Source: Spirochaetota bacterium (GTDB lineage Bacteria; Spirochaetota; UBA4802; UBA5550). From it: a stretch of DNA of 64,000 nt. The position numbers and the translations under genes are program-made. The stretch is from contig JALOTL010000004.1 in assembly GCA_025457915.1 (NCBI GenBank), positions 124,001-188,000 of the forward strand, in the 5' to 3' direction. The notes below the pieces were generated by a model, which was not told the DNA's origin, searched no databases, and was given only the letters and a program-made list of their open reading frames with translations. Every line of letters starts with the position of its first letter. Within the stretch, counting starts at the first letter, position 1. Shown here piece by piece: positions 3,731-58,423 of the stretch.

Positions 3731-4309
3731 TCAATCATCATTATCGCGGGGAAGGGCCAACAATTCGCCGTCCTTGGTGTAAAAGCTGGTGCAGCCCTTT
3801 CTTAACTCTTCATACAGCCGCACCCTGGCCCTGTGGAGCCTAATTTTTACCGTCTCGATCGACAGGGACAGCCTGTCTGATATTTCCTCGTTGGACAGGC
3901 CGTCGAATTCGCTGAGCACGTAGATGTCATAGTAATTGCTCGGCAGTTTCTTCACGAATTCCACGTAACACTGGACCATTTCCTTTCTCATGATGGCGTC
4001 ATCATGAGATTTGTGCCTTTTATCGGCCAGGTTTTCCAAATCCGCGCCGCTGCTTCCATCAGCCGCGGCCAGGGGTTTTACCGACACGATCCTCCTGGTG
4101 CTCCTGATGCTGTCCCTTGCCGTGTTCAGCGCGATTTTATACAGCCACGAGGAAAGGCTGGATTCGTCCTTGAGGGAATCCAGCGTCCTGCTGACCTTGA
4201 TGAAAACCTCCTGGGTAAGGTCTTCAGCCATCTCCCCGCCGACTATGCCTTTGAGATATCTCAGTATCTTTTCGTGATATTCGGTATAGATTTCATCGAA
4301 GTTCAACAT
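3731..4309 (-). CDS. RNA polymerase ECF sigma factor (sigma-70 family)
   Basis: 192 residues. Region 2 is clear near the N-terminus (FDEIYTEYHEKILRYLKGIV, then AEDLTQEVFIKV and SSLSSWLYKIALNTARD), followed by region 4 with a helix-turn-helix (LSNEEISDRLSLSIETVKIR). It redirects RNA polymerase to a small regulon. No anti-sigma factor with a zinc finger is adjacent; the downstream two-helix membrane protein is the only local candidate. A 9-bp inverted repeat lies just upstream of the start and could be an operator. Target genes cannot be told from the window. Confidence 0.93.
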   Translation of the reverse strand: MLNFDEIYTEYHEKILRYLKGIVGGEMAEDLTQEVFIKVSRTLDSLKDESSLSSWLYKIALNTARDSIRSTRRIVSVKPLAAADGSSGADLENLADKRHKSHDDAIMRKEMVQCYVEFVKKLPSNYYDIYVLSEFDGLSNEEISDRLSLSIETVKIRLHRARVRLYEELRKGCTSFYTKDGELLALPRDNDD

Positions 4310-12101: not shown

Positions 12102-12992
12102 CTAAAGTGTCGGGATGTTTGAGGCCCTTTCCCTTTTTTCCTTTTCCTTCATGATCTTTTCATTTTTTTCCTTTTCGAGCCTGTCCCTTTCAGCCTGTTC
12201 CTTCGCGGCTTTTTCCTCTTTTATTTTATCAAGGGCCTTCTTCCTTTCTTCCTTGAGCTTATCATTCTTGTCATCGCCGGATGTTTTCTGGATCTCTTCC
12301 CTGTATTCTTTTTTGGCGTTGTCTTCAAGTTTTTCAACGACATCGGACTTGATGTCATTGAATTCGTTTTTGATCTCACTTATTTCCTCGGGCTTAAGAA
12401 CGGCGACCTTGATTTCGGCCTTCTTGTTCACTATCTCCTGGACTTTTTTCATGGTGATATCCGTCGTCTGGGATGACTCAACCACCTTTTCAACGTCCTT
12501 GATCACCATGCCCTTCATGACGGGATTGACGGAAACCTTTCCCTTGAGGACGTCGATCCTTGAGGAATCGTCGGCGACAGACACCCTGAAGCTCGTGCCC
12601 CTGACTGAAGCGACGGCTGTGGGCGTTTTCACGCTGAATGCGCCCTTGCTCAGCTTGGATAGGGTTACGTGCAGTTTGCCCTTATCCATGTCCATCTGTG
12701 TTTCATTTCCAATTTTATCTATGAGCGATGATATCTTGACGCTGGTGTTCTCGGATACCCTCACAAGGCAGCTGTTCGACAACGTGAGGTCGGCCAGCGA
12801 CTTGGACCCGGTAATTATCCTGTCGTTCGCCTTGAGAACATCGCCCTGGCTTGCGGTCTTTTCAGCCTTATTAATGGAAACCTTGACATCGCCTATGATG
12901 TTCTGCACCATGAAGCTTTCTTCAGCGTCCTTCTTGCAGGATAATGAAACTGCCGCGGCCATGGCAAGAAGCATGATAAATAATCTTTTCAT
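12102..12992 (-). CDS. FecR-domain lipoprotein with charged C-terminal tail
   Basis: 296 residues. Lipoprotein signal peptide with lipobox ending VSLSC (Cys at about 19), then a FecR domain (about residues 30-160) with TGSKSLADLTLSNSCLVRV and the hallmark VKTPTAVASVRGTSFRVSV. The last ~100 residues are a Lys/Glu-rich coiled coil. FecR domains outside iron uptake, as here with no FecI or TonB receptor, are common in spirochaete lipoproteins, where the role is unclear; they may bind envelope polymers or relay signals. A related protein lies at 50.6-51.5 kb. Confidence 0.85.
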   Translation of the reverse strand: MKRLFIMLLAMAAAVSLSCKKDAEESFMVQNIIGDVKVSINKAEKTASQGDVLKANDRIITGSKSLADLTLSNSCLVRVSENTSVKISSLIDKIGNETQMDMDKGKLHVTLSKLSKGAFSVKTPTAVASVRGTSFRVSVADDSSRIDVLKGKVSVNPVMKGMVIKDVEKVVESSQTTDITMKKVQEIVNKKAEIKVAVLKPEEISEIKNEFNDIKSDVVEKLEDNAKKEYREEIQKTSGDDKNDKLKEERKKALDKIKEEKAAKEQAERDRLEKEKNEKIMKEKEKRERASNIPTL

Positions 12993-30742: not shown

Positions 30743-32257
30743 ATGAGACCGTTTCCCGCATCAGGCGTTTTTTTGAAAATAAAAGACAGCGCGGTTTTGC
30801 AAAAATTCCTGAAACTGGACTTCATACGGGACATAAAGATCTGGCACAAGATGATCATCCTCCTCCAGATACTCTTCATACCGATGATCCTCATCTTCCT
30901 GGTTTTTCTCCTCATGATGAATAAAATGCACGACATGGGGAACAGGATACTGTCCGAAAACGTTTCAAACATAAGGGCGGCCTACAAGGTCGAGCTGTCG
31001 CTCCTGAACCTGAAGGGGATCAACGCGAACTACATACTCGACAGCGATAAAAGATGGCTTGCGAGGTTCGAGACCAACGTCAAGGACTTCAACTACTGGT
31101 ACAACAGGGCCTTCATCGCGGCAAGGACGGAGGAGGAGCACCACATCCTAACGGGCATTTCCCTGAACTTTGAAAAATACTGCAGGTATCACGAGATGAT
31201 CGTGAAGCTGGTGGACAGGGACAGGGAGCTGGAGGCGCTCAGGCTTCACGTAAGCGATTCATCGAATAATTTCTACGCCGCCTACCAGGGATGCGAGGAC
31301 CTGATAAAAAAGAACGAGGAGCTGATCTCCAATTCGGAGAGGGAGGCCGAAATATACCTCAGCCGGACCATGAAGTTCGGCTACCTGACGATCGCCTGCT
31401 TCATAATCCTCGGCATAATGAGCGCCATGCTCATTACAAAAAGCATACTTGACCCAATAATGGAAATGGAGAAGGGAAGCGACTCGGTGGCGCCGCTGAA
31501 AAGCGACAAGGTCGAAATCGAAAAACTGAAGGAGCGGTTCCAGAACATGGTTAAAACCATAAAGGACAGCCAGCAGAAAATGATTTCGTCCGAAAGAAAG
31601 GCGGCGATCGGGGAAATATCGGCCGGACTCTCTCATGAATTGAACAATCCGCTCGGCATAATATGCGGATTTTCAGAAAGGCTGCTGCAGAGCGAGTCCC
31701 TTCCAAAAAAGAACAGGGAGGCCGTCCAGACCATACATCACGAGGCACTCAGGTGCAGGGACATGCTGGGCCAGCTGCTGAACTTCGCGAGGCAGCCGGA
31801 GCCGAACTACAACCTGACCGGGATCAAGAGCCTGCTCAGGCAGATGGCAAAAATTTTTGAAAACCAGGACAAGTATAAAAACGTGAATTTTTCCATCGAT
31901 GTTCCCAGGGACCCCGTCAAGGTATACATGGACAGCGTCCAGATGCGGCAGGTCCTGCTGAATATTGTTTTGAACGCCTGCGACGCGATCAATAACAGGG
32001 GAAAGGTTTCAATCAAGCTTGAAACTGAACGAAAAAATGCTGTCATCCGGATCAGGGACAACGGATCGGGCATCAGGCCTGAAATTAAGGATAAAATCTT
32101 TACTCCCTTCTTTTCAACGAAACCCAAGGGAGTAGGTCTGGGACTCGCCGTCTGCAGGGATATAATTGAAAAGCACAGCGGGAGCATCAACGCGGAAAGC
32201 GAACCGGGAAAATTCACAGAATTCATCATAAGGCTTCCCAGGGGGAGACATGGATAA
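30743..32257 (+). CDS. Sensor histidine kinase (NtrB-like) with periplasmic four-helix sensor
   Basis: 504 residues. Two transmembrane segments (about 35-58 and 213-236) frame a helical periplasmic domain of about 150 residues resembling a four-helix-bundle sensor. The cytoplasmic part has the dimerisation and phospho-acceptor His in SAGLSHELNNPLGIICGF (H box), then the ATPase domain: N box LNIVLNACDAINNRG, G1 DNGSGIRPE and FFSTKPKGVGLGLAV. The ELNNPL context is that of kinases paired with NtrC-type regulators. Its stop overlaps the start of the response regulator by 8 bases. Confidence 0.93.
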   Translation: MRPFPASGVFLKIKDSAVLQKFLKLDFIRDIKIWHKMIILLQILFIPMILIFLVFLLMMNKMHDMGNRILSENVSNIRAAYKVELSLLNLKGINANYILDSDKRWLARFETNVKDFNYWYNRAFIAARTEEEHHILTGISLNFEKYCRYHEMIVKLVDRDRELEALRLHVSDSSNNFYAAYQGCEDLIKKNEELISNSEREAEIYLSRTMKFGYLTIACFIILGIMSAMLITKSILDPIMEMEKGSDSVAPLKSDKVEIEKLKERFQNMVKTIKDSQQKMISSERKAAIGEISAGLSHELNNPLGIICGFSERLLQSESLPKKNREAVQTIHHEALRCRDMLGQLLNFARQPEPNYNLTGIKSLLRQMAKIFENQDKYKNVNFSIDVPRDPVKVYMDSVQMRQVLLNIVLNACDAINNRGKVSIKLETERKNAVIRIRDNGSGIRPEIKDKIFTPFFSTKPKGVGLGLAVCRDIIEKHSGSINAESEPGKFTEFIIRLPRGRHG

Positions 32258-33638
32258 AAAGAGGCTCAAGGTTCTTATAGTAGACGATGAAGCTGGAATG
32301 TGCAAGCTCCTGAAGGAGATAATACAGGACCTGGGCTATTCGCCAAAGCCCTTCACCTCTCCCAGGAGGGCCCTCGCCGCGGTAAAACAGGAAAAGTTCG
32401 ATATCGCGATAATCGACGTTAAAATGCCGGAGATGGACGGCCTGGAGCTGCTGAAAAACGCCCGCGAGATCATCCCCGATCTCGACGTGATCATGATAAC
32501 CGCCTACGGAAGCATAGAAAGCGCGGTAGAGGCCATAAAAATCGGCGCGTTCAACTATATCACCAAACCCTTCCGGCAGGAGGAGATAAAAATAGCCGTC
32601 GGAAAAATAGTCGAAAGGAAAAACCTGATAGACGAGAACGCGAGGCTGAGACAGGAGCTGATCGACATCCAGAGCGGCGGAAGCATCATAGGAAAAAACA
32701 GCAAGATGATGGAGATCATAAAATTCTCCAAAAAAATCGCCGGCTCCAAGTACAGCGTGCTCGTAACCGGCGAGAGCGGAACCGGCAAGGAGGTGTTCGC
32801 GAAATTCATCCACACCCAGAGCGGGAGAAAGGATTCGCCGTTCATCGCCGTGCAGTGCAACCTGATCCAGAAAAATCTCCTCGAGAGCGAGCTTTTCGGC
32901 CACAAGAAGGGCTCATTCACCGGGGCCGATTCCGACAGGGACGGACTTTTCGCGGAGGCCAACGGCGGGACGATATTTCTCGACGAGATAGGCGACATCG
33001 ATCCCGATATCCAGGGAAAACTCCTCCGTTTCCTGCAGGACCATGAAATCCGCAGGGTTGGAGAAACCAAATCCAGGGTGCTGGAAGTGAGGATGATTTC
33101 CGCCACGAACAAGAACCTGGAGGACCTCGTGAAGAAGGAACGCTTCAGGGAAGATCTTTATTACAGGCTCAAGGTAATAACCATACACATACACCCGCTA
33201 AGGGAGAGGAAGGAAGACATACCCCTGCTGGTGCGTCATTTTCTCGACGAGATCGCAAAGGAATCAAAAATGCCGGTCGAAATCGACAAGGACTGCTTCA
33301 GGCACCTTGCCGCCTACAACTGGCCGGGCAATGTCCGCGAACTCAGAAACTGCATAGAAACCGCCTCCACCATCTGCGATGACGGCGTTATAAGGCCTTC
33401 GGACATCTCGAAGATCCTTTCATTGAACGAACTGGTTCTTCCCTCAGACAAGCACAGCTTTAAAGAATCGAAGGAGGCCGTACTGAAGGAATTCGAAAGG
33501 AATTTCATCACCAACCTTTTGATGAACAACAAGGGCAACATAACTGTATCGGCCAGGGACGCGGGAATGGATAAAAAAAATTTCTGGGACCTCATGAAAA
33601 AACACGGGATAAAACACGGCGATTACAAGGATAAATAA
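32250..33638 (+). CDS. NtrC-family sigma-54-dependent response regulator
   Basis: 462 residues. Receiver domain (1-120) with the acidic pocket D12/D13, phospho-acceptor D56 (IIDVKMPEMDG), T84 and K106. Central AAA+ domain (about 148-375) with Walker A GESGTGKE (174-181), the sigma-54 contact loop GSFTGA (221-226; most family members have GAFTGA) and FLDEIGDID. C-terminal Fis-type helix-turn-helix (GNITVSARDAGMDKKNFWDL). Works with the overlapping kinase. Two palindromes and a sigma-54 promoter lie directly downstream of the gene, which points to the adjacent small repeat protein as target. Confidence 0.95.
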   Translation: MDKKRLKVLIVDDEAGMCKLLKEIIQDLGYSPKPFTSPRRALAAVKQEKFDIAIIDVKMPEMDGLELLKNAREIIPDLDVIMITAYGSIESAVEAIKIGAFNYITKPFRQEEIKIAVGKIVERKNLIDENARLRQELIDIQSGGSIIGKNSKMMEIIKFSKKIAGSKYSVLVTGESGTGKEVFAKFIHTQSGRKDSPFIAVQCNLIQKNLLESELFGHKKGSFTGADSDRDGLFAEANGGTIFLDEIGDIDPDIQGKLLRFLQDHEIRRVGETKSRVLEVRMISATNKNLEDLVKKERFREDLYYRLKVITIHIHPLRERKEDIPLLVRHFLDEIAKESKMPVEIDKDCFRHLAAYNWPGNVRELRNCIETASTICDDGVIRPSDISKILSLNELVLPSDKHSFKESKEAVLKEFERNFITNLLMNNKGNITVSARDAGMDKKNFWDLMKKHGIKHGDYKDK

Positions 33639-33645
33639 TCTGTAG

Positions 33646-33682
33646 TGGTATTTGTACCAAAATACCGTTGGTATAATTACCA
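33646..33682. promoter_or_regulatory. Two tandem palindromes TGGTA-N4-TACCA, likely enhancer sites for the NtrC-type regulator
   Basis: Site 1 at 33646-33659 and site 2 at 33669-33682 each consist of TGGTA, four bases and TACCA, with centres 23 bp apart (about two helical turns). They lie 84-120 bp upstream of a sigma-54 promoter, the usual place for an upstream activating sequence bound by dimers of an enhancer-binding protein. Confidence 0.7.
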
Positions 33683-33765: not shown

Positions 33766-33780
33766 TGGCACGCTTTATGC
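33766..33780 (+). promoter_or_regulatory. Sigma-54 (-24/-12) promoter of the Lys/Pro/Ala repeat gene
   Basis: CTGGCACG at 33765-33772 and TGC at 33778-33780 match the consensus TGGCACG-N4-TTGC with one mismatch, and GG and GC are exactly 10 bp apart. Transcription would begin near 33792, giving a leader of about 56 bases with AAAGGAGAC before the ATG at 33848. Confidence 0.75.
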
Positions 33781-33847
33781 ATTATATATGGTATTACGTT
33801 GAACCCATAATGGGAAAACGATATATAAAAAATAAAAGGAGACTTTT

Positions 33848-34126
33848 ATGAAAAAGATTACAAGCATGATGGTTGCTCTCGTATTTGCGCTGAGCATGGC
33901 CGTTTTCGCAGCCGACAAAGCTGGCAGCGACAAACCTGCTGAAAAAGGCAAACCTGCTAAAACTGCTGAAAAAGGCAAACCTGCCAAACCAGTAAAAGGC
34001 AAACCTGCTAAAACTGCTGAAAAAGGCAAACCTGCCGAAAAGGGCAAACCTGCTGAGAAGGCAAAACCTGTTAAAGGCAAACCTGCTGAAAAAGGCAAAC
34101 CTGCCGAGAAAGGACAGGCTATGTAA
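33848..34126 (+). CDS. Exported Lys/Pro/Ala-rich repeat protein under sigma-54 control
   Basis: 92 residues. Signal peptide of 21 residues ending AVFA, then a 71-residue mature chain made of imperfect copies of EKGKPA or KTAEKGKPA. GKPA occurs seven times. The mature chain has 22 Lys against about 7 Glu and 2 Asp, no Cys and no aromatic residue, so it is strongly basic and probably unfolded. It resembles the low-complexity KPA tails of histone-like or polyanion-binding proteins, but here it is exported. Strong ribosome-binding site. Directly preceded by the NtrC-type sites and a sigma-54 promoter, so it is probably the main output of that two-component system. Confidence 0.8.
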   Translation: MKKITSMMVALVFALSMAVFAADKAGSDKPAEKGKPAKTAEKGKPAKPVKGKPAKTAEKGKPAEKGKPAEKAKPVKGKPAEKGKPAEKGQAM

Positions 34127-34167
34127 TTTTGCAGATCAGTTATTTTTTTAATTAACTGGCAAAAAAA

Positions 34168-34198
34168 TTGTATGAGGGGATGATATCCCCTCATACAA
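34168..34198. terminator. Hairpin after the repeat-protein gene
   Basis: Perfect 14-bp inverted repeat (34168-34181/34185-34198) with a 3-base loop. The T-run lies on the minus strand (A-run 34161-34167 on plus), so it may terminate minus-strand transcription best; on the plus strand it could protect the mRNA 3' end. Confidence 0.55.
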
Positions 34199-34220
34199 AA
34201 CTCTTTAATCAACCATTAAA

Positions 34221-34520
34221 ATGACAAAAAGAATCCGGACAGCATTAATAATTACGACTTTTCTCATACTCGCAAACGCTTCAGGCCATGCCCTTGCCGG
34301 ACAGGATGATGAAACCAATCTCTCCGTTTCCGGAGTCCTGATAGCCGTAAACGAAAAAAACAGCTTCATTATTATAAAGCATGATGAAAGGGCGGCAAAA
34401 TTCAAGGCCAGCAAGGAAATCTGCGGAAAGCTGAAAAACAGGCTGAACCAGACGATCAGGATATTCTACTACAAAGCGCCGGATGGATCACTGTACGTGA
34501 AACAGTTCACCCTCGAGTAA
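34221..34520 (+). CDS. Small exported protein of unknown function
   Basis: 99 residues. Signal peptide (MTKRIRTALIITTFLILANASGHALA) then a short beta-rich domain (LSVSGVLIAVNEKNSFIIIK, ending DGSLYVKQFTLE) that could be an OB-like barrel. One Cys. It follows the repeat protein on the same strand and might be co-expressed by read-through, but the hairpin between them argues for separation. Confidence 0.6.
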   Translation: MTKRIRTALIITTFLILANASGHALAGQDDETNLSVSGVLIAVNEKNSFIIIKHDERAAKFKASKEICGKLKNRLNQTIRIFYYKAPDGSLYVKQFTLE

Positions 34521-34534
34521 AAAACCCGCACCCA

Positions 34535-35998
34535 TCACTTTCTTCTGCAGTAATATCGGGAAACAGCCCCGGCCGCTTTCATTGCGTCCCTCAGGTCGTC
34601 AAAAACCGGGATTCCCTTTTCCAGAAAAAGCCTCCTGGTATCCCTTATCACCTCCTCTATCTCCATGGCTTCCGGTTCCCTCTTATAGTTGGGAAGAACG
34701 AGGAGAACGGGTTTGCCGGTGGCTTTCATCGCATCAGCGCAGGCCTCGGCAAGGCCCCTTGTTGGAGTTATTTCCCTTACGGATCCCGAACCTAACATCA
34801 CGGAAAGCGCCCTGTAATGATACAGTAGCTGGACGACAACCTGCAGGTCGATACGGTCATCGCCGCCCGCACAGACGAGGATTTCCCTCAACGCATCGGG
34901 CGGTACATAAGGATTCGCGATGTCGACCGGATTGGCCGGGCTAGATCCAGGGCCGGGCAGGTGCTTCAGTATCCTGGCCTGGATATCCGCACCCAGCCCG
35001 GGGATGCTGAACCCGAACTCCTCCGCGAAATCGGCAGCGGCCACGCCGAGGGCCCCGCCGCCGCCGATGATGGAAATACCGTTGAATGATTTACGTGGCA
35101 GCATGGAAAAAGCCAGGGCCGCATCAGAAAGCTCGCGCATGTCCATGGCCCTTACCGCGTTGCACTGGTTAAGCGCCGCTTCCCATATGGCCCTGGCCCC
35201 GCCCATTGACGCGGTATGGCTTGCCGCGGCCCTTCCCCCTGCTTCAGAAAGTCCGCCCTTGAGAACGATGACGGGCTTTACCGATGCGGCATTCCTGAGC
35301 ACCCTCAAAAACTCCCTGCCGTCGTCGACGCCCTCGATGTACATTCCAATCACCTCGGTCTCCGGGTCTTCAGTGAAATATTCCAGGAGCTCGGTTTCCC
35401 TCAAGTCCGCGCCGTTCCCGAAACTCACGACCTTGCTGAAGCCTATCCCCTTCCATTTGCCCACGTGAGAAAAGTCAATGGAATGCCCGCCGCTCTGCGA
35501 TATGAAGGACACGCCCCCGGGCCTCCTGGAAAGGTCCGGTCCGGGAAGGAGGGTGAGTCCGGACCTCGGGCTGTATATGCCGAAGCAGTTGGGGCCCAGC
35601 ACCCTGATTCCCCTTCCGGCAATATCCCTTATCCTTTTATCCAGCTCCATACCCTCCGATGTCCCGGTCTCGCCGAACCCGGATGACAGAATCTCCGCTC
35701 CGGCCGCCCCCTTTTTCATGCACGATTCCAGCGCTTCAGGGACAGAATCCGCGGGCACCGCGATTATGGCGAAGTCGATGTCCCCGGGTATGTCATCGAT
35801 GCTCTTATGGATCTTCAATCCGCAGATCTCGCCCCCCCTGCGGTTGACCGGGAAAAGCTCCCCGCTGAAACCGATGGAAAGAAGCGACAGGAGTATGCCC
35901 CTCCCGAAACCGAAACCCTCCGCCGCCACTCCTACAATCGCCACCCTTTCCGGGGCGAAAATCCTTTTAAACCGGTTTTTTGATTCTTCCGTCAGCAT
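34535..35998 (-). CDS. ADP-forming acyl-CoA synthetase, alpha subunit
   Basis: 487 residues. N-terminal CoA-binding Rossmann domain (VAIVGVAAEGFGFGRG), succinyl-CoA-ligase-like domain with SFISQSGGHSIDFSHVG, and the conserved phospho-histidine region AASHTASMGG near residue 265. Converts acyl-CoA, ADP and Pi to the free acid, CoA and ATP with the beta subunit. The beta subunit is encoded separately at 36.8 kb on the other strand, with a TetR gene between, so the locus is a divergent acd-alpha / tetR-acd-beta unit. Substrate could be acetyl-, branched-chain or aryl-acetyl-CoA. Confidence 0.87.
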   Translation of the reverse strand: MLTEESKNRFKRIFAPERVAIVGVAAEGFGFGRGILLSLLSIGFSGELFPVNRRGGEICGLKIHKSIDDIPGDIDFAIIAVPADSVPEALESCMKKGAAGAEILSSGFGETGTSEGMELDKRIRDIAGRGIRVLGPNCFGIYSPRSGLTLLPGPDLSRRPGGVSFISQSGGHSIDFSHVGKWKGIGFSKVVSFGNGADLRETELLEYFTEDPETEVIGMYIEGVDDGREFLRVLRNAASVKPVIVLKGGLSEAGGRAAASHTASMGGARAIWEAALNQCNAVRAMDMRELSDAALAFSMLPRKSFNGISIIGGGGALGVAAADFAEEFGFSIPGLGADIQARILKHLPGPGSSPANPVDIANPYVPPDALREILVCAGGDDRIDLQVVVQLLYHYRALSVMLGSGSVREITPTRGLAEACADAMKATGKPVLLVLPNYKREPEAMEIEEVIRDTRRLFLEKGIPVFDDLRDAMKAAGAVSRYYCRRK

Positions 35999-50560: not shown

Positions 50561-51547
50561 TTACTTCATCACGACCTTCACTATGCTGGAAATCGGTATC
50601 GTTACGACCCCGGAGGTAGTGTTCATCCTCACGTTCTGGCTGTCCTGCGAGAAAATCGCGCCGATGAGCCTGGACCCGTCGTCGAGGGTCACCTCTTCAA
50701 GCTTATGGTAGTATTCCTTTATCTGGGTCTCGGTCTTAAGGACCGGGGCCTTCTCCATGGCTGGCTGTGCCGGCTGGTCGATTTTCTGTTCAGTTTTGGC
50801 CTGCGGCTCCTTTTTAACAGGGGCATCGGCCTCTTTTTTCTTCTCTTCCGGCTGTTTCACCGAAGAGGCGGGCCCAAGCTTGACCGCGACCTCCTCCTTC
50901 TCCTTCACGAGGACCTCCATCTCGGCCTTTTCCATCTTTTCCTTTTTCCTGACCTTGCCCTCGCTTTCCACGGTGATGCGCTCGCCCGTGGCGATCTCTT
51001 CCTTAACGTTTTTGCCGATCCTGTCCTCGATTTTGACCGCGCCGTCGACCACCCTGAGGGTCGATTTCACCACGTTTTTCTCCGCAGTGGAATCGATCGC
51101 GAAGCTCGTTCCCCTGACGGAACAGACTATGGTCTGCGTCGTCACGTCGAACGTGCCGCCCCTGAAAAGCTTCTTTAATATCACGAAAATCTTCCCCTCG
51201 GTAAGGCCGACGGAGGATTTTATCAGCTCGTCCTTCTCCGTGAGCTCGGCCCTGGTGAGCTTAACGGAGGATTTTTCATATATCTTGATTACCGACCACT
51301 GGCTTATGGCCACAACGACGTGGGAATTGGAGCCGGTCTTAATAATGTCACCTGTTTCAACGGGATCTTCGTAATACAGGGGCATGGTCCTGTCGGCCTT
51401 CTGTATCTTCGCCTCGCCGACGAGTCCGATCACCCTGATCGGGTAATCCTCTTTCTTCTTGCACGATGAGACCGTGAAAAGAAAAATGACGGCAATGCAT
51501 AAACGGACTGCGATCCCGAAAACGGATGCCATGCTTTTATTTTCCAT
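50561..51547 (-). CDS. FecR-domain lipoprotein with Lys/Glu-rich linker
   Basis: 328 residues from the ATG with GGGAGGAG upstream; upstream in-frame codons are not used. Lipobox ends TVSSC (Cys about 27). FecR domain with TGDIIKTGSNSHVVVAI and TQTIVCSVRGTSFAIDS, which matches the RGTSF hallmark also found in the 12.1-kb protein. A Lys/Glu/Pro-rich linker (about 200-285) leads to a small C-terminal beta domain (VTLDDGSRLIGAIFSQDSQN, then VVTIPISSIVKVV). It lies downstream of, and converges with, the MBL gene. Confidence 0.85.
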   Translation of the reverse strand: MENKSMASVFGIAVRLCIAVIFLFTVSSCKKKEDYPIRVIGLVGEAKIQKADRTMPLYYEDPVETGDIIKTGSNSHVVVAISQWSVIKIYEKSSVKLTRAELTEKDELIKSSVGLTEGKIFVILKKLFRGGTFDVTTQTIVCSVRGTSFAIDSTAEKNVVKSTLRVVDGAVKIEDRIGKNVKEEIATGERITVESEGKVRKKEKMEKAEMEVLVKEKEEVAVKLGPASSVKQPEEKKKEADAPVKKEPQAKTEQKIDQPAQPAMEKAPVLKTETQIKEYYHKLEEVTLDDGSRLIGAIFSQDSQNVRMNTTSGVVTIPISSIVKVVMK

Positions 51548-51597
51548 AACTCCTCCCGTACGGACCGGGAAGCTGTTTACATCCCGCCGACAGCCGA

Positions 51598-51627
51598 TAC
51601 ATAACCACCGAATGTAGACTTTGTCAA
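51598..51627 (-). promoter_or_regulatory. Possible sigma-70 promoter of the FecR gene
   Basis: Minus strand: perfect TTGACA (51627-51622), 18-base spacer, TATGTA (51603-51598), about 45 bases before the ATG at 51547. Confidence 0.4.
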
Positions 51628-51846
51628 TACATTTCAATTCTCCCGGGGACAGGCCGATTGCACTGACCTGCCCGAATCCGGAATTAATAAATTATACATG
51701 CTGCAGCCATCCATTCAATCTCCATTTCCTCTTTAACCCTCAGGCAAGGGGCGTGAATTGATGTCTGCATGATGCGGATTATAATTATATTTTTTAAAAG
51801 ACGGTTAACGAGCTTATCAGGGATAATATTATTAAATAACGAGGGT

Positions 51847-52297: not shown

Positions 52298-52326
52298 TTG
52301 ACACGGCCGGGCTTTTTTCATATCCT
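52298..52326 (+). promoter_or_regulatory. Sigma-70 promoter of the liv operon
   Basis: Perfect TTGACA (52298-52303), 17-base spacer, TATCCT (52321-52326). The leader of about 124 bases to the livK ATG ends in GGAGG. Confidence 0.65.
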
Positions 52327-52456
52327 ATGCCAGTTTCGGCGCCGTTCCCGGATCCCCGGGGCCGGATTTCATCCTTCCGCGCCGGAAAGACCGCTTAAAT
52401 TTACCGGATTAACCGGCCATTGCCGGAAAATATATTTTTTTACGTATGGAGGAAAT

Positions 52457-53617
52457 ATGTCGTTAAAAAAAGTGCTGGCTCTGACGCTGTCCATTTCCGT
52501 CTGCATGGCTGCGGCCGGGTGCAAAAAGGCCCCCGAGGACGCGATAAAAATCGGAGCGATTTTTTCAGTGACCGGGGGAGGCTCGAACCTCGGTGCGCCT
52601 GAATCCAAGACGGCGAAAATGCTGGTTGACGAAATAAACGCTAAAGGCGGCGTCAACGGCAAAATGCTCGATCTCATAGTGAAGGATTCCGAGAGCAGTC
52701 CTGAAAAGGCCATATCCTTCGCCAAGCAGCTCATCGAAGAGGAAAAGGTTTTCGCGATCATCGGGCCGTCCACCAGCGGTGAAACGATGAAGATAAAAAG
52801 CATCTGCGATGAGGCAAAGGTCATAATGCTCTCCTGCGCCGCCGCCGAGGTCATAGTCAACCCGGTAGCGAAATACGTGTTCAAGACGCCCCAGAAGGAC
52901 AGCCACGTCGCGATGAGGATCTTCGACACCATGAAAAAGATGGGGATAAACAGCATCGGGATCATCTCGGACAATACCGGCTTCGGCAACGCGGGCAAGG
53001 ACCAGCTCGAGAAGATCGCGCCGCAGAAGGGCGTAAAGATCGTGATCAGCGAGGTATACGACAAGAAGGCGACCGACCTCTCCGGCGTGCTCACCAAGCT
53101 CAAGGCCAGAAACGTCCAGGCCGTCGTCAACTGGTCGATCGTACCGGCTCAGTCGATAGTCGCCAAGAACATGAAGCAGATAAACCTTAACGTGCCCCTG
53201 TTCCAGAGCCACGGCTTCGGCAACATAAAATACGCCAAGGAGGCCGGAAAGGCCGGCGAGGGCATCATCTTCCCGTGCGGCAGGCTGCTGGTCGCGGAAC
53301 AGCTTCCGGACACCAACAAGCAGAAAACACTGCTCGTGAAATACAAGAAGGACTACGAGGCGAAGTTCAACGAGGACGTCAGCACGTTCGGCGGCCATGC
53401 GTACGACGCCATAACGATCCTGGTAGAGGGACTCAAGAAGGCGGGATCCGCCGACAGGGAAAAGGTCAGGACCGCGATAGAAAACCTGAAGGGCTTCCCC
53501 GGAACGGCGGGAGTATTCAACTTCTCGCCCCAGGACCACAACGGTCTCGGGCTTGATTCGCTCGTGATACTCACCGTCAAGGACGGGAAGTTCGTTCCTT
53601 ACGAAAAACTTGATTAA
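52457..53617 (+). CDS. livK: Branched-chain amino-acid-type ABC transporter substrate-binding lipoprotein
   Basis: 386 residues from an ATG with GGAGG 5 bases upstream. Lipoprotein signal, lipobox AAAGC (Cys about 22). Peripla_BP_6 fold: IKIGAIFSVTGGGSNLGAPE, LVDEINAKGGVNGKMLDLIV, GPSTSGETMKI and GGHAYDAITILVEGLKKAG. Captures the ligand in the periplasm for LivHM. The family binds Leu/Ile/Val, aromatic acids, amides and others; the downstream paaK suggests an aromatic acid as an alternative. Confidence 0.9.
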   Translation: MSLKKVLALTLSISVCMAAAGCKKAPEDAIKIGAIFSVTGGGSNLGAPESKTAKMLVDEINAKGGVNGKMLDLIVKDSESSPEKAISFAKQLIEEEKVFAIIGPSTSGETMKIKSICDEAKVIMLSCAAAEVIVNPVAKYVFKTPQKDSHVAMRIFDTMKKMGINSIGIISDNTGFGNAGKDQLEKIAPQKGVKIVISEVYDKKATDLSGVLTKLKARNVQAVVNWSIVPAQSIVAKNMKQINLNVPLFQSHGFGNIKYAKEAGKAGEGIIFPCGRLLVAEQLPDTNKQKTLLVKYKKDYEAKFNEDVSTFGGHAYDAITILVEGLKKAGSADREKVRTAIENLKGFPGTAGVFNFSPQDHNGLGLDSLVILTVKDGKFVPYEKLD

Positions 53618-53625
53618 TTCGCGCG

Positions 53626-53652
53626 TCGGCCGGGCCGTCACGGCCCGGCCGA
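53626..53652 (+). other. Intercistronic hairpin between livK and livH
   Basis: Perfect 12-bp GC-rich stem (53626-53637/53641-53652) with loop TCA and no T-run after it. It lies in the 48-base gap between the binding-protein and permease genes. Such hairpins stabilise the upstream mRNA so that the binding protein is made in excess. Confidence 0.75.
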
Positions 53653-53665
53653 ACGATTCTCCGAT

Positions 53666-54556
53666 ATGGCATTCGAACAGGTACTTCAATACATACTCTC
53701 CGGGGTGACGAACGGCAGCATCTACGCCATCGTCGCCATCGGCTTCAACATCGTATACAATACCACCGGGATAATTAATTTCGCCCAGGGAGAATTCCTG
53801 ATGCTCGGCGGGATGACCGCCATATCGCTGTCCCAGTTCATGCCCCTTCCGCTGGCGATCCTGTTCGCGGTAATCATCACGTCGCTGGCCGGAGCCATGA
53901 TCGACTTCGTCTTCATCAGGAGGCTCAGGAACCCGTCTGTCCTCATGATGATCATAGTCACCATCGGGCTTTCCATCGTGATAAGGGAGATGGCCCTCCA
54001 CATATGGGACGAAAAGGTAAGGTCCCTCCCCTACTTCACCGGGAGCGAGGTCACGTCGATAAGCATACTCGGGGCATACATTTCGCCGCAGGTGTTATGG
54101 GTGCTCGGAGTATGCGGATTGATGGTCCTCCTTCTCGGGCTGTTCTTCAGGTACACCGCCACCGGCAGGTCGATGAGGGCCTGCTCTTCCAACAAGACGG
54201 CCGCGGGGCTCTGCGGCATCAACACGGGGAACATGGTGACGATTTCCTTCATGCTGAGCGCGGCCATGGGGGCGCTTGCAGGGTGCGTCATATCACCCAT
54301 CACACAGACCCAGTACGACAGCGGAACGTCCCTTGCGATCAAGGGGTTCACCGTCGCCATCCTTGGCGGAATGGGCAACAGCACCGGCGCGGTCGTCGGG
54401 GGCCTGCTGATCGGCATGCTCGAATCGTTCAGCATCAGCGTGCTGCCGATGGCATACAAGGACGCCATATCCCTTGCGATACTGATACTGATACTCTTCA
54501 TCAGGCCGAGCGGCCTCTTCGGAAGCAGGGAAGAATCGGCGCTGAAGGAATTCTGA
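53666..54556 (+). CDS. livH: Branched-chain-type ABC transporter permease LivH
   Basis: 296 residues with eight or so transmembrane helices. Signature segments: GVTNGSIYAIVAIGFNIVYN, TTGIINFAQGEFLMLGGM and the C-terminal IAILGGMGNSTGAVVGGLLI with EAA-loop glycine. Inner-membrane permease half. The stop overlaps the livM start (TGATG). Confidence 0.92.
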   Translation: MAFEQVLQYILSGVTNGSIYAIVAIGFNIVYNTTGIINFAQGEFLMLGGMTAISLSQFMPLPLAILFAVIITSLAGAMIDFVFIRRLRNPSVLMMIIVTIGLSIVIREMALHIWDEKVRSLPYFTGSEVTSISILGAYISPQVLWVLGVCGLMVLLLGLFFRYTATGRSMRACSSNKTAAGLCGINTGNMVTISFMLSAAMGALAGCVISPITQTQYDSGTSLAIKGFTVAILGGMGNSTGAVVGGLLIGMLESFSISVLPMAYKDAISLAILILILFIRPSGLFGSREESALKEF

Positions 54557-55644
54557 TGGACGCCGGAAGATACATACCCGTGCTTATACTCGCGGCCGCA
54601 GTGGCCGCGGTCCAGCTCTTCACGCTGGCCACCGGGAGCGAATACTACCTGACCCAGCTCACCATGTCGGCCTATTACGCCCTCGTCATAATCGGTCTTT
54701 GCACCCTGATGGGTTACGCCGGGCAGATATCCCTCGGCCACGCTGGTTTTTTCGCCATAGGGGGATACACGGTGTCCGTGATGACTACGTACGATTTCTC
54801 CGGGTTCTCCGGCTCCGCCGTCATGGGCCTGCTCGGAACACTGGGGCTCGCATCCGCGTCGGGCGGGGAGCTCCACCTGTCGCCGTGGGTATCGCTGGCC
54901 GCGGCGCTGGTCATCACCGTGGCCGTGGCCTTCATCATAGGGATCCCGATACTTAAGCTCAAGGGACATTACCTGGCAATGGCATCGCTGGGCTTCGGAC
55001 TGATAATCTACAGGATCGTCCTCGGCACCAGGATCTTCGGCGAGGCCGACGGCATCTCCGATGTCCCGGGCTTCGCCATCGCCGGAGGGCTCAGGGTGTC
55101 CGGCAGCCCGGAACTCCGGATACAGAACTACTACATCGCGTGGACACTGGTGATCATCGGTACCGTCATGCTGATCAACCTCGTGAAATCAAGGGCCGGC
55201 AGGGCGCTCCGGTCGATACACGGGAGCGAGGAGGCGGCAATGGCAATGGGCGTGAACGCCTCCAGGTACAAGCTCTACGTCTTCGTGATAAGCGCCGTGT
55301 TCGCGTCCCTCGCCGGCGCCTTCATGGCCCACCTGAACGGCGGGATCGGACCGTCCGAGGCGGACGTGATGAAATCGGTGAAATACGTGGCCATTGTGGC
55401 CGCGGGCGGGATGGCCAACCTCTGGGGCGCCCTTACCATGGGCGTACTTCTGAACTACATTTCCCTCAGGGGATACCTTGGGAGCTACGACGACGCGTTC
55501 TTCGGCGCTATACTGATCGCCATCATGCTCTTCGCGCCGGAAGGGCTCATAAACCCGGCGGTCATGAAGACCGCCGCTGTCAGGGCCCGCTCCCTGATCG
55601 ACTCGATCAAAAAGAAAACGGGACGCGGCGGCCATGCTTCTTGA
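54556..55644 (+). CDS. livM: Branched-chain-type ABC transporter permease LivM
   Basis: 362 residues from the ATG that overlaps the livH stop by one base. About nine to ten transmembrane helices. Motifs: LMGYAGQISLGHAGFFAIGG, GHYLAMASLGFGLII, RALRSIHGSEEAAMAMGVN and AGGMANLWGALTMGVLL. Partner of LivH. Its 3' end overlaps livG by 11 bases. Confidence 0.92.
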   Translation: MDAGRYIPVLILAAAVAAVQLFTLATGSEYYLTQLTMSAYYALVIIGLCTLMGYAGQISLGHAGFFAIGGYTVSVMTTYDFSGFSGSAVMGLLGTLGLASASGGELHLSPWVSLAAALVITVAVAFIIGIPILKLKGHYLAMASLGFGLIIYRIVLGTRIFGEADGISDVPGFAIAGGLRVSGSPELRIQNYYIAWTLVIIGTVMLINLVKSRAGRALRSIHGSEEAAMAMGVNASRYKLYVFVISAVFASLAGAFMAHLNGGIGPSEADVMKSVKYVAIVAAGGMANLWGALTMGVLLNYISLRGYLGSYDDAFFGAILIAIMLFAPEGLINPAVMKTAAVRARSLIDSIKKKTGRGGHAS

Positions 55645-56387
55645 GGTGAAAAACGTCAGCAGGGCCTTCGGCGGCCTCCGCGCGGTCGACGACGTGAGCT
55701 TCAGCGTCCCGAAAAATTCCATCAAGGCGATCATCGGGCCGAACGGGGCGGGCAAGACCACGCTCTTTAACCTGATCTCCGGCAGCCTCCGGCCCGACTC
55801 GGGCAGGGTGTTCTTCAACGGCAGGCAGATCCAGGGACGGCCGCCCCATACCATCGCCGCCCGAGGCGTGTCCAGGACGTTCCAGAACATAAAGCTCTTC
55901 CATAACATGACGGTCCTGGAAAACGTGATGGTGGGCAGGCACACGAGAAGCAGGTCCGGCTTCATGGCCGGCATATTCAACCTGCCATCCTGCTGGCGCG
56001 AGGAGAGGGAGATCGAAAACAGGTCGCGCGGGATACTCGACATGCTCGGCGTCTCCGGCCTGGCCGGAATGAACGCGGGAAACATAGCCTTCGGCAGCCA
56101 GAGGATCGTGGAGTTCGCGAGGGCGCTGGCCCTCGAGCCGGAGCTCCTCCTGCTGGATGAGCCCGCCGCCGGGCTGAACATGCACGAAACCGCCGAGATA
56201 GCGGAGATCATAAGAAAAATCAGGGAGATGGGCGTCACCATACTCATAATCGAACACGACATGTCTCTGATAATGGACATCTCGGACGACATAGTCGTCC
56301 TCAGCTCCGGGAAGATGATCGCAGAGGGCAGGCCCTCGGACATCCAGAAGAACCCGGAGGTCATCAGGATATATCTTGGAGAGGAAG

Positions 56388-56410
<23 letters not shown>
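55634..56410 (+). CDS. livG: Branched-chain-type ABC transporter ATP-binding protein LivG
   Basis: 258 residues. Walker A GPNGAGKT, the signature region FGSQRIVEFARALA (LSGGQ is replaced by FGSQR, common in LivG), Walker B LLLLDEPAAGLN and the switch His in LIIEHDM. Overlaps livM and livF, so the cassette is translationally coupled. Confidence 0.92.
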
Positions 56411-57122
<712 letters not shown>

Positions 57123-57133
57123 GGGAGGCTGAT

Positions 57134-58423
57134 ATGATATACAATCCCGAATACGAAACCATGCCACGCGAGGAGATCGAACAGCTCCAGATAGAGAGGC
57201 TGCAGACCACCCTCAACAGGGTCTACCGCAACGTTGCCTTCTATAAAAACAAGTTCGATGAAATGAAGATCGACATCGGGAAGATAAAAAGCGTCGCCGA
57301 CATGAAGGAGCTCCCCTTCACGACCAAGGAGGACCTCCGCGAAAGCTATCCCTACGGGATGTTCGCCGTCCCCCTCAAGGACATCGTGAGGATCCATTCG
57401 TCGTCCGGCACAACTGGCAAGCCCATAGTGGTGGGCTACACCAAAAACGACATCCAGCACTGGTCCGCCATGACAGCCAGGCTCCTGGCCGCGGTCGGGA
57501 TAAACGAGCACGATTTCGTACAGATCGCGTTCGACTACAGCCTCTTTACCGGCGGGTTCGGGTTCCACTACGGCGCGGAGAGGATAGGCGCGTCGGTAAT
57601 CCCGTCGTCCTCGCACGGAAACATCCAGAAGCAGATATTCATAATGAAGGACTACAAGACGACCGCGCTCCTCAGCGCGCCGAGCTTCGCGGTGGAAGTC
57701 GCAAACAAGATAAGGGAAATGGGCATACACCCGGAGGAGCTGAAGCTCAGGTACGGGCTCTTCGGCGCCGAGCCGTGGAGCGACGAGCTCCGGGGCCGCA
57801 TCGAGGACAATCTGCACATCGACGCCTACGACAACTACGGCCTTTCAGAGGTGATGGGGCCCGGCGTCTCGGGCGAATGCCCCGAAAAAAACGGCCTCCA
57901 CGTCAACGAGGACCATTTCATAATCGAGGTCATCGACCCGAAGACGCTCCTTCCCATGCCTGCAGGGAGCGAGGGCGAGCTCGTCTTCACGACGATAACG
58001 AAGGAAGGCTTCCCGCTGATAAGGTACCGCACCGGCGACGTCGCCTCCCTCATGGAAGGGGTGTGCCCCTGCGGAAGGACCTTCGCGAGGATGAGCAGGG
58101 TCACGGGAAGGACCGACGACCTGATAATAATCAGGGGCGTCAAGGTATTCCCGACACAGGTGGAGGAGATCCTTCTGAAGGCCGAGGGCGCTACGCCCAG
58201 GTTCAGGCTGATCATCGAAAACAGGGATGGACTGGACGAGCTAGAGATACAGGTCGAGGTCTCGGAAAAAATCTTCAACGACGAGATCAAGAACCTGCTG
58301 AACCTCAAGGGAAAAATCGCCGGGCTCATCGAGGAGGAGCTGGGTCTCGCCGTCAGGGTGACCCTCGTGGAGCCCGAGACCCTCGGGGGCAACGGCGAGA
58401 AGCGCGTCGTGACCGGGAAATGA
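57134..58423 (+). CDS. paaK: Phenylacetate-CoA ligase, liv-linked paralogue
   Basis: 429 residues, ribosome-binding site GGGAGG. Same domain order as the ligase at 43.5-44.8 kb: HSSSGTTGKPIVVGYT, NYGLSEVMGPG, GRTDDLIIIRGVKVFPTQVE. Being last in livKHMGF-paaK, it suggests that the imported molecule, or its degradation product, is an aryl acid to be activated to the CoA thioester. Confidence 0.92.
   Translation: MIYNPEYETMPREEIEQLQIERLQTTLNRVYRNVAFYKNKFDEMKIDIGKIKSVADMKELPFTTKEDLRESYPYGMFAVPLKDIVRIHSSSGTTGKPIVVGYTKNDIQHWSAMTARLLAAVGINEHDFVQIAFDYSLFTGGFGFHYGAERIGASVIPSSSHGNIQKQIFIMKDYKTTALLSAPSFAVEVANKIREMGIHPEELKLRYGLFGAEPWSDELRGRIEDNLHIDAYDNYGLSEVMGPGVSGECPEKNGLHVNEDHFIIEVIDPKTLLPMPAGSEGELVFTTITKEGFPLIRYRTGDVASLMEGVCPCGRTFARMSRVTGRTDDLIIIRGVKVFPTQVEEILLKAEGATPRFRLIIENRDGLDELEIQVEVSEKIFNDEIKNLLNLKGKIAGLIEEELGLAVRVTLVEPETLGGNGEKRVVTGK

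Follow-up and report, generated by a model that had tools for sequence, protein, structure and literature searches.

An exported lysine-rich repeat protein of a spirochaete appears to be controlled by an adjoining sensor kinase and a sigma54-type promoter

In Escherichia coli, the acid-shock chaperone Asr is periplasmic and intrinsically disordered, and it is induced about 1000-fold at pH 4.4, as stated in an excerpt of PMC10746267. Control of an envelope-stress response through sigma54 is exemplified by ZraSR, a two-component pair that comes with the periplasmic chaperone ZraP (excerpt of PMC7657598). Repeats of the KPA type are found in the cytoplasmic KPAA tail of AlgP, which binds DNA in vitro as KPAA peptides and differs in repeat number between strains (passages of PMC9239181), and variation of repeat number between strains has also been described for the lysine-rich tail of Hc2 (PMC2848022, in part). 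In spirochaetes, Leptospira possesses the ECF-FecR pair LIC_12757-LIC_12756 (excerpt of PMC12655853). A composition rule for hydrophilins sets glycine above 6% and a hydrophilicity index above 1 (excerpt of PMC7448490). Our search of the openly licensed literature brought up no account of an exported lysine-rich protein from spirochaetes or of one controlled by sigma54, although one may be in print elsewhere, and the excerpt of PMC8118282 describes none.

The KPA gene considered here lies in a window of 64,000 nucleotides, the whole stretch of DNA that was analysed, from a spirochaete whose 3.66-Mb draft genome, in 50 contigs, is 96% complete. FlaA is a marker of spirochaetes, and the genome encodes three proteins of the FlaA type that score over the cut-off of PF04620, a family with members in 0/14 control genomes; on this basis we assign the genome to the spirochaetes. 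The features of the locus are collected in Table 1. The ATG start codon of KPA is preceded at a distance of 7 nt by AGGAGA, and on inspection of the sequence the ORF is headed by a Sec-type signal peptide, for which cleavage after VFA (residue 21) was predicted by eye; signal peptide and K/A/P repeat chain were both judged by composition together with sequence inspection. The mature chain (n=71) is made of K22 A14 P10 G9 E7 D2 T2 V2 S1 Q1 M1. The original prediction had described it as almost only K, P, A, G, E and T, with a net charge of about +13 and neither an aromatic residue nor cysteine, and each of these statements agrees with our figures: these six residues make up 64/71, the computed charge is +13 at a pI of ~10.1, and F, W, Y, H, C, I and L are all absent. 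We infer that the mature chain is intrinsically disordered and that its export would end in the periplasm. Pfam gave no match to the protein at E<=1, a search of 19 other family genomes with its sequence gave none at E<=0.01, and neither did tblastn against plasmids, a search limited by low-complexity filtering. PADLOC reported no defence match for KPA or its partner protein, and elsewhere only generic AAA+ and kinase matches. When the 64-kb window was scanned crudely for exported low-complexity ORFs rich in K, KPA was the sole match, and a scan of the same type over 80 background loci (738,113 bp) found none; thus, KPA is not a chance ORF.

Table 1. Features of the KPA locus (positions in the window)
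Feature	Position	Strand	Description
Sensor histidine kinase	30743..32257	+	Pfam: 4HB_MCP-type sensor domain, HisKA, HATPase_c
NtrC-type response regulator	32250..33638	+	Pfam: receiver, sigma54-activation AAA+ (GSFTGA), C-terminal HTH region
Palindrome TGGTATTTGTACCA	33646..33659	.	Putative enhancer (upstream activator) site 1
Palindrome TGGTATAATTACCA	33669..33682	.	Putative enhancer site 2; starts 23 bp after the start of site 1
-24/-12 sigma54-type promoter TGGCACGCTTTATGC	33766..33780	+	GG-N10-GC; 67 nt from its end to ATG
KPA gene	33848..34126	+	92 aa; signal peptide MKKITSMMVALVFALSMAVFA (residues 1-21) and 71-aa mature chain
Tandem repeats	33932..34113	+	18-nt and 27-nt units coding GKPAEK and GKPAKTAEK
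Strong perfect terminator-like hairpin	34168..34198	-	Between KPA gene and partner; T tract on minus strand
Exported partner, 99 aa, FKASKEIC motif	34221..34520	+	Predicted OB fold; second gene of putative operon

In the repeat region, Tandem Repeats Finder recognized a 27-nt array of 4.0 copies (83% matches) and an 18-nt array of 5.9 copies (77%). The repeats had been called near-identical at the codon level and taken as a sign of recent expansion or contraction, with possible variation of length between strains. The first statement stands in part: GGC AAA CCT is constant in 7/7 GKPA copies, yet the silent variants GCT/GCC, GAA/GAG and AAA/AAG are present. As to the second, codon identity among the GKPA copies (n=7) was 0.857 compared to 0.394 expected from the codon usage of the window, a value reached in 0/2000 simulations; when the expectation was taken from the gene's own usage it rose to 0.70, and 139/2000 simulations reached the observed value. 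Hence the uniform codons are compatible with recent expansion while their excess over the gene's own usage is marginal, and with moderate confidence the evidence fits recent expansion from a founder unit. High expression was considered as a source of the odd codons, using 23 ribosomal and elongation-factor genes as reference, and the outcome was mixed: the log-likelihood ratio per codon, 0.18, leans for it, as it falls among the ribosomal values (0.02 to 0.21) and exceeds those of all 18 window genes, whereas the CAI of 0.685, as against 0.73-0.82 in window genes, leans against it. GC3 is 0.36 in KPA, 0.55 in the ribosomal genes and 0.74 in the window.

The most informative features of the locus are its two-component system, the enhancer-like palindromes and the sigma54 promoter. 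Directly upstream of KPA, the kinase and regulator genes share an 8-nt overlap, and the 209 nt that separate the regulator gene from the KPA start codon hold the two palindromes and then the promoter. The pattern TGGTA-N4-TACCA has exactly two copies in the 3.66 Mb genome, both of them in this gap, and its reversed control gave 8 matches per strand. In Markov simulations of the gap at least one TGGTA-N4-TACCA copy arose in 12/20000, and any 5-N4-5 palindrome was repeated with the same arms in 15/5000; both tests were designed after the palindrome pair had been seen. The short sigma54 pattern had 13 exact matches in the genome versus 37 for its reversed control, that is, no enrichment, and is therefore not diagnostic by itself. 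What makes the promoter convincing is its setting: enhancer-like sites precede it, the start codon follows, a sigma54-type activator is encoded upstream, and the genome encodes RpoN. All the parts of a sigma54 operon are thus at hand, namely RpoN, a -24/-12 element, an activator with a GAFTGA-type loop and upstream sites for which binding is predicted, and the regulator would presumably bind to the two palindromes. Regulation of KPA by the kinase-regulator pair and sigma54 is well supported by the sequence, and we hold it to be very probable; the gene would seem to answer to a membrane-stress sensor of its own. A further exact TGGCAC-N6-TGC site of the genome, at G000:C11:32682-32696 (locus L085), precedes by 115 nt an ORF of 148 aa that has a CGGEC motif, and is a possible second sigma54 target.

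Downstream of KPA lies the gene for the small exported partner, which likewise has no Pfam family at E<=1. Its AlphaFold2 model is a small beta barrel, with mean pLDDT per ten-residue block of 83-96 from residue 31 on and of 92-96 from residue 41 on. The best PDB structure matches to the model were OB folds, the first being SilF (E 1e-3, TM 0.55/0.67), and OB folds of many functions matched nearly as well; in a profile search of solved structures, no match to the partner was stronger than E 0.07. The partner thus resembles the periplasmic metal chaperones CusF and SilF in being a small exported protein with an OB fold, in its case a predicted one, but it is only 14% identical to SilF. Metal binding was considered and set aside, the fold match being only a hint and the domain having none of the methionine/tryptophan residues that form the CusF metal site. 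Between KPA and the partner gene stands the hairpin, and its 94-nt region folds with -30.5 kcal/mol (z -6.9). It lies ~340 nt past the end of a convergent CoA-synthetase-like gene (34535-35998), and as the minus strand carries its T tract, it may end transcripts from that gene or else stabilise the KPA message; it could also limit co-transcription of the partner with KPA. If the convergent transcript runs to the hairpin, it would be antisense to the FKASKEIC gene.

We observed the same module in G015, a genome from another genus of the same family. Of 392 phylum genomes, four matched the kinase sensor profile, and two of these were accepted, the host genome (G000) and G015. Kinase-like matches in G026 (two) and G040 were dropped, as no NtrC-type regulator adjoins them in the stretch examined; the G026:C5 and G040 matches sit among chemotaxis-like genes and the other G026 match adjoins a ParA-like gene. 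The FKASKEIC profile matched the same 2/392 genomes. The kinase-FKASKEIC module is therefore rare, both profiles being accepted in G000 and G015 only, and since the sensor domain has a true member in 2/392 genomes, its conservation comes down to one comparison. In G015 the gene order is kinase, regulator, exported 134-aa protein, FKASKEIC protein and exported K-rich protein; the regulator is 54% identical to that of the window and likewise reads GSFTGA in its activator loop, and the kinase is 41% identical over the N-terminal part. The K-rich protein has K26 of 65 mature residues, a net charge of +10 and its own, different signal peptide, and it shows no convincing alignment to KPA beyond composition. 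The G015 operon is preceded by a GGTATTATACC palindrome (GGTA-N3-TACC) and then CGGCAC-N6-TGC, with a gap of 76 bp compared to 85 bp between palindromes and sigma54-type promoter in the window. This promoter match has one mismatch and was equalled by 84/200 shuffles, so that it is not significant alone, and the N4 palindrome pattern with <=2 mismatches was found once in G015 versus 1.28 times expected by chance. The 134-aa protein (L083:847-1251), encoded by the first operon gene, has no Pfam match and is absent from the window operon. Beyond these genomes, no exported K-rich ORF turned up in a crude scan of the loci (738,113 bp) of the best 80 of 521 regulator relatives; all 80 are <=46% identical and, by title, from other phyla, and hence uninformative on the module.

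A loose profile search with the KPA and G015 K-rich proteins over 46 class genomes gave 38 match rows in 24 genomes, of which 16 loci were inspected. Small exported K/R-rich chains were found in seven further genomes: G012 (two adjacent genes), G021, G027, G028, G031, G041 and G042. The nine chains that were tabulated (G000, G015, G021, G027, G028, G041, G042 and both of G012) have net charges of +6 to +17, and F, W, Y and C are absent from 8/9. Export of KPA, as originally predicted, is thereby favoured on sequence grounds, by its good signal peptide and by the different signal peptide of the G015 protein at the equivalent locus. That KPA-type tails are known from cytoplasmic bacterial proteins is also correct, AlgP with its KPAA tail being one (PMC9239181, in part). 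In contrast, the accompanying view that export of such a chain is unusual is weakened by periplasmic Asr (excerpt of PMC10746267) and by the exported K-rich proteins of the seven further class genomes.

The K-rich genes of G021, G041 and G042 are each paired head to head with an ECF sigma gene, at start-codon distances of 89, 120 and 99 bp, respectively. Pfam sigma-70 regions 2 and 4 are over their cut-offs in 3/3 of these ECF genes, and the three factors are related among themselves, two of them being 42% and 35% identical to the first. The association comprises three genomes, two of them of one genus. A FecR-type gene comes next in G021, and the corresponding G042 gene has no Pfam match. ECF sigma factors are a second regulator type, often tied to the envelope. 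The intergenic regions of the three pairs (L153:3852-6043 in G021, L154:2096-4017 in G042 and L155:659-1573 in G041) share, by eye, a CT(T/C)GATT-N6/7-TACA-like motif in the same orientation.

Several further observations were made at these loci and in the window. The G031 protein (L156:5678-6208), which is outside the table of nine chains, is an exported K/D-rich protein of 176 aa with a YHYH motif and a net charge of ~+22; it contains Y and C, the cysteine being in its C-terminus. In G028 (L150:2104-5501) and G027 (L152:5736-7155) a gene for a related exported protein lies downstream of the K/R-rich gene in the same orientation, with one minus-strand ORF between the two in G028, and the G027 protein has a weak outer-membrane beta-barrel match below the cut-off. 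The window also encodes, at 12102-12992 and 50561-51637, two FecR-like exported proteins whose long charged tails are rich in K and E, and at 52298-58423 a cluster for an ABC transporter of the branched-chain amino-acid type with a phenylacetate-CoA ligase-like gene after it, all of them named by appearance; G031 has a similar order to this cluster at L156:6283-11943.

The ORF with its signal peptide and composition, the gene order, RpoN, the predicted promoter and palindromes, and a partial conservation in a second genus can be read from the DNA itself, and they suggest the following course of events. On a change at the cell surface, the sensor kinase, which has a four-helix-bundle input domain, would phosphorylate the NtrC-type regulator, and the regulator would occupy the two tandem palindromes ~85-120 bp upstream of the sigma54 promoter. 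Transcription by sigma54 would then comprise KPA, as first gene of a stress operon, and probably the OB-fold partner. The KPA chain would leave the cytoplasm by Sec as a disordered envelope polycation, beside a small folded partner, and probably act through charge rather than fold, as E. coli Asr does. KPA would be produced in large amounts when acid, metal or membrane stress affects the envelope, and would serve as a net-charge chaperone and as a polycation that stabilises the outer membrane; both the stress signal and this function are what we infer. We give a rough probability of 0.5 to the whole reading, that KPA is an envelope-stress protein, disordered and polycationic, with Asr as its analogue and a control resembling that of ZraPSR, and for the Asr-like charge function taken separately the chances are about even.

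Other roles would fit parts of the same evidence. KPA could be a structural polycation that, with no chaperone activity, cross-links anionic envelope polymers such as LPS-like lipids, peptidoglycan or polyphosphate and replaces divalent cations on damage. A charge of +13 on 71 residues, with lysines spaced regularly and no hydrophobic clusters, would suit such a protein, as would the retention of composition and not sequence in G015 and seven other genomes; we nevertheless consider it unlikely, because Pfam revealed neither a lipid anchor nor a peptidoglycan-binding domain in KPA, and because the comparable chains (net +6 to +17) also carry many D/E and are more polyampholytes than pure polycations. 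That KPA or the OB-fold partner mainly binds the kinase sensor and damps the signal, like CpxP and ZraP, is suggested by the coupling of these genes to the kinase-regulator pair in two genera, and ZraP is named a periplasmic chaperone and repressor of ZraSR in a title in the reference list of PMC7657598. However, the K-rich chains of G000 and G015 share almost no sequence while the N-terminal parts of the kinases are 41% identical, and since a specific binding partner should be better kept, the OB-fold partner is a better candidate for this task; such feedback is improbable overall.

The mature KPA chain falls under the hydrophilin rule, with 12.7% glycine and an index of 1.51 (GRAVY -1.51), and might accordingly be an exported protectant against water stress or freezing, selected only for hydrophilicity; yet its G015 counterpart is glycine-free and most other chains have <6% glycine, so that the rule is not common to the K-rich group, and we regard this role as distinctly unlikely. 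Neither do we put much weight on a secreted or surface polycation, an adhesin or matrix protein for extracellular DNA or for host or community polyanions: the signal peptide of KPA comes without a periplasmic retention domain, and KPAA peptides of AlgP bind DNA in vitro (PMC9239181, in part), but neither a surface anchor nor a gene of a secretion system was noticed beside KPA, and the kinase-sigma54 operon coupling in two genera favours the envelope, which renders this role highly improbable. Finally, a cytoplasmic nucleoid protein with an AlgP- or Hc2-like tail and a misread signal peptide, or an untranslated ORF, is hardly credible, although AlgP KPAA repeats bind DNA (excerpt of PMC9239181) and an antisense 145-aa ORF (33775-34212) covers the same DNA, as a cleavable signal peptide is found in KPA and, by eye, in 9/9 comparable chains, and the ribosome-binding site and promoter of KPA are on the plus strand.

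Returning to KPA as an envelope-stress polycation, it may belong to a type of envelope protein that recurs in the class, is exported, disordered, lysine-rich and poor in aromatic residues, keeps this composition but not its sequence, and is wired to differing envelope-stress regulators by family, to a kinase-sigma54 pair in one family and to an ECF sigma in two others, a tentative reading that we place somewhat below even odds. If it is true, net charge and length would be the properties under selection, the DNA repeats would allow the chain to lengthen or shorten, and Asr would be one independent case of wider, so far unrecognised "charge chaperones" of the diderm envelope. Since composition alone is kept, such exported K-rich proteins escape homology searches; finding one via its regulator, by palindromes, promoter and kinase-regulator pair, provides a testable prediction of when and why it is made. 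The main interest lies in this conservation by composition alone and in the repeated coupling of K-rich chains to envelope-type regulators, and if exported polycations recur with envelope-stress regulators class-wide, the view of Asr as an enterobacterial oddity needs revision.

Among the known systems, Asr is the closest in protein type: like KPA, it is a small exported basic repeat protein without a fold, and it is stress-induced in E. coli (PMC10746267, in part). KPA displays the corresponding traits, a signal peptide and a basic K/A/P repeat chain. It was rejected as a member of the Asr family proper, with 22.9 bits in NCBIfam NF033636 versus a curated cut-off of 50; one of three mature-chain shuffles reaches 18.6 bits, and real K-rich exported proteins score 18.6-23.9 bits in 6/7 cases given. 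The resemblance to Asr, which is rich in K, A and P, is compositional, and unlike Asr, KPA belongs to another phylum and has a dedicated sigma54 kinase-regulator pair adjoining its gene.

In its control, the locus compares with ZraPSR of E. coli and Salmonella, where a histidine kinase and an NtrC-type sigma54 regulator govern an adjoining gene for a small periplasmic protein (excerpts of PMC7657598 and PMC10848872), and in the window the adjacent histidine kinase and sigma54-activating regulator have their Pfam domains over the cut-offs. The individual proteins are not those of ZraPSR: the regulator scored 347.2 bits against a ZraR equivalog cut-off of 760, the kinase 153.7 bits against 479 for ZraS, and KPA has no domain of the ZraP/Spy type, its 19.0 bits in the Spy model (cut-off 174) falling mostly over the signal peptide and being equalled or exceeded by 2/3 shuffles that retain this signal peptide. 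Spirochaete ECF sigma/FecR-type loci resemble those of G021, G042 and G041, whose K-rich gene is divergent from the ECF sigma gene, whereas the KPA locus uses sigma54 and a two-component system; the window's own ECF sigma (3731-4309) is encoded elsewhere and is 22% identical to the K-rich-linked ECF sigma. The histone H1-like tails of AlgP, PhaF and Hc2 share KPA-type repeats of K, P and A with KPA, but these proteins are cytoplasmic and AlgP has a predicted helical N-terminal domain before its tail, while KPA has a signal peptide, by which it was rejected as a nucleoid protein of the AlgP/Hc2 type, and its entire mature chain is repeat. Thus, the KPA protein is unusual in sequence, not in kind.
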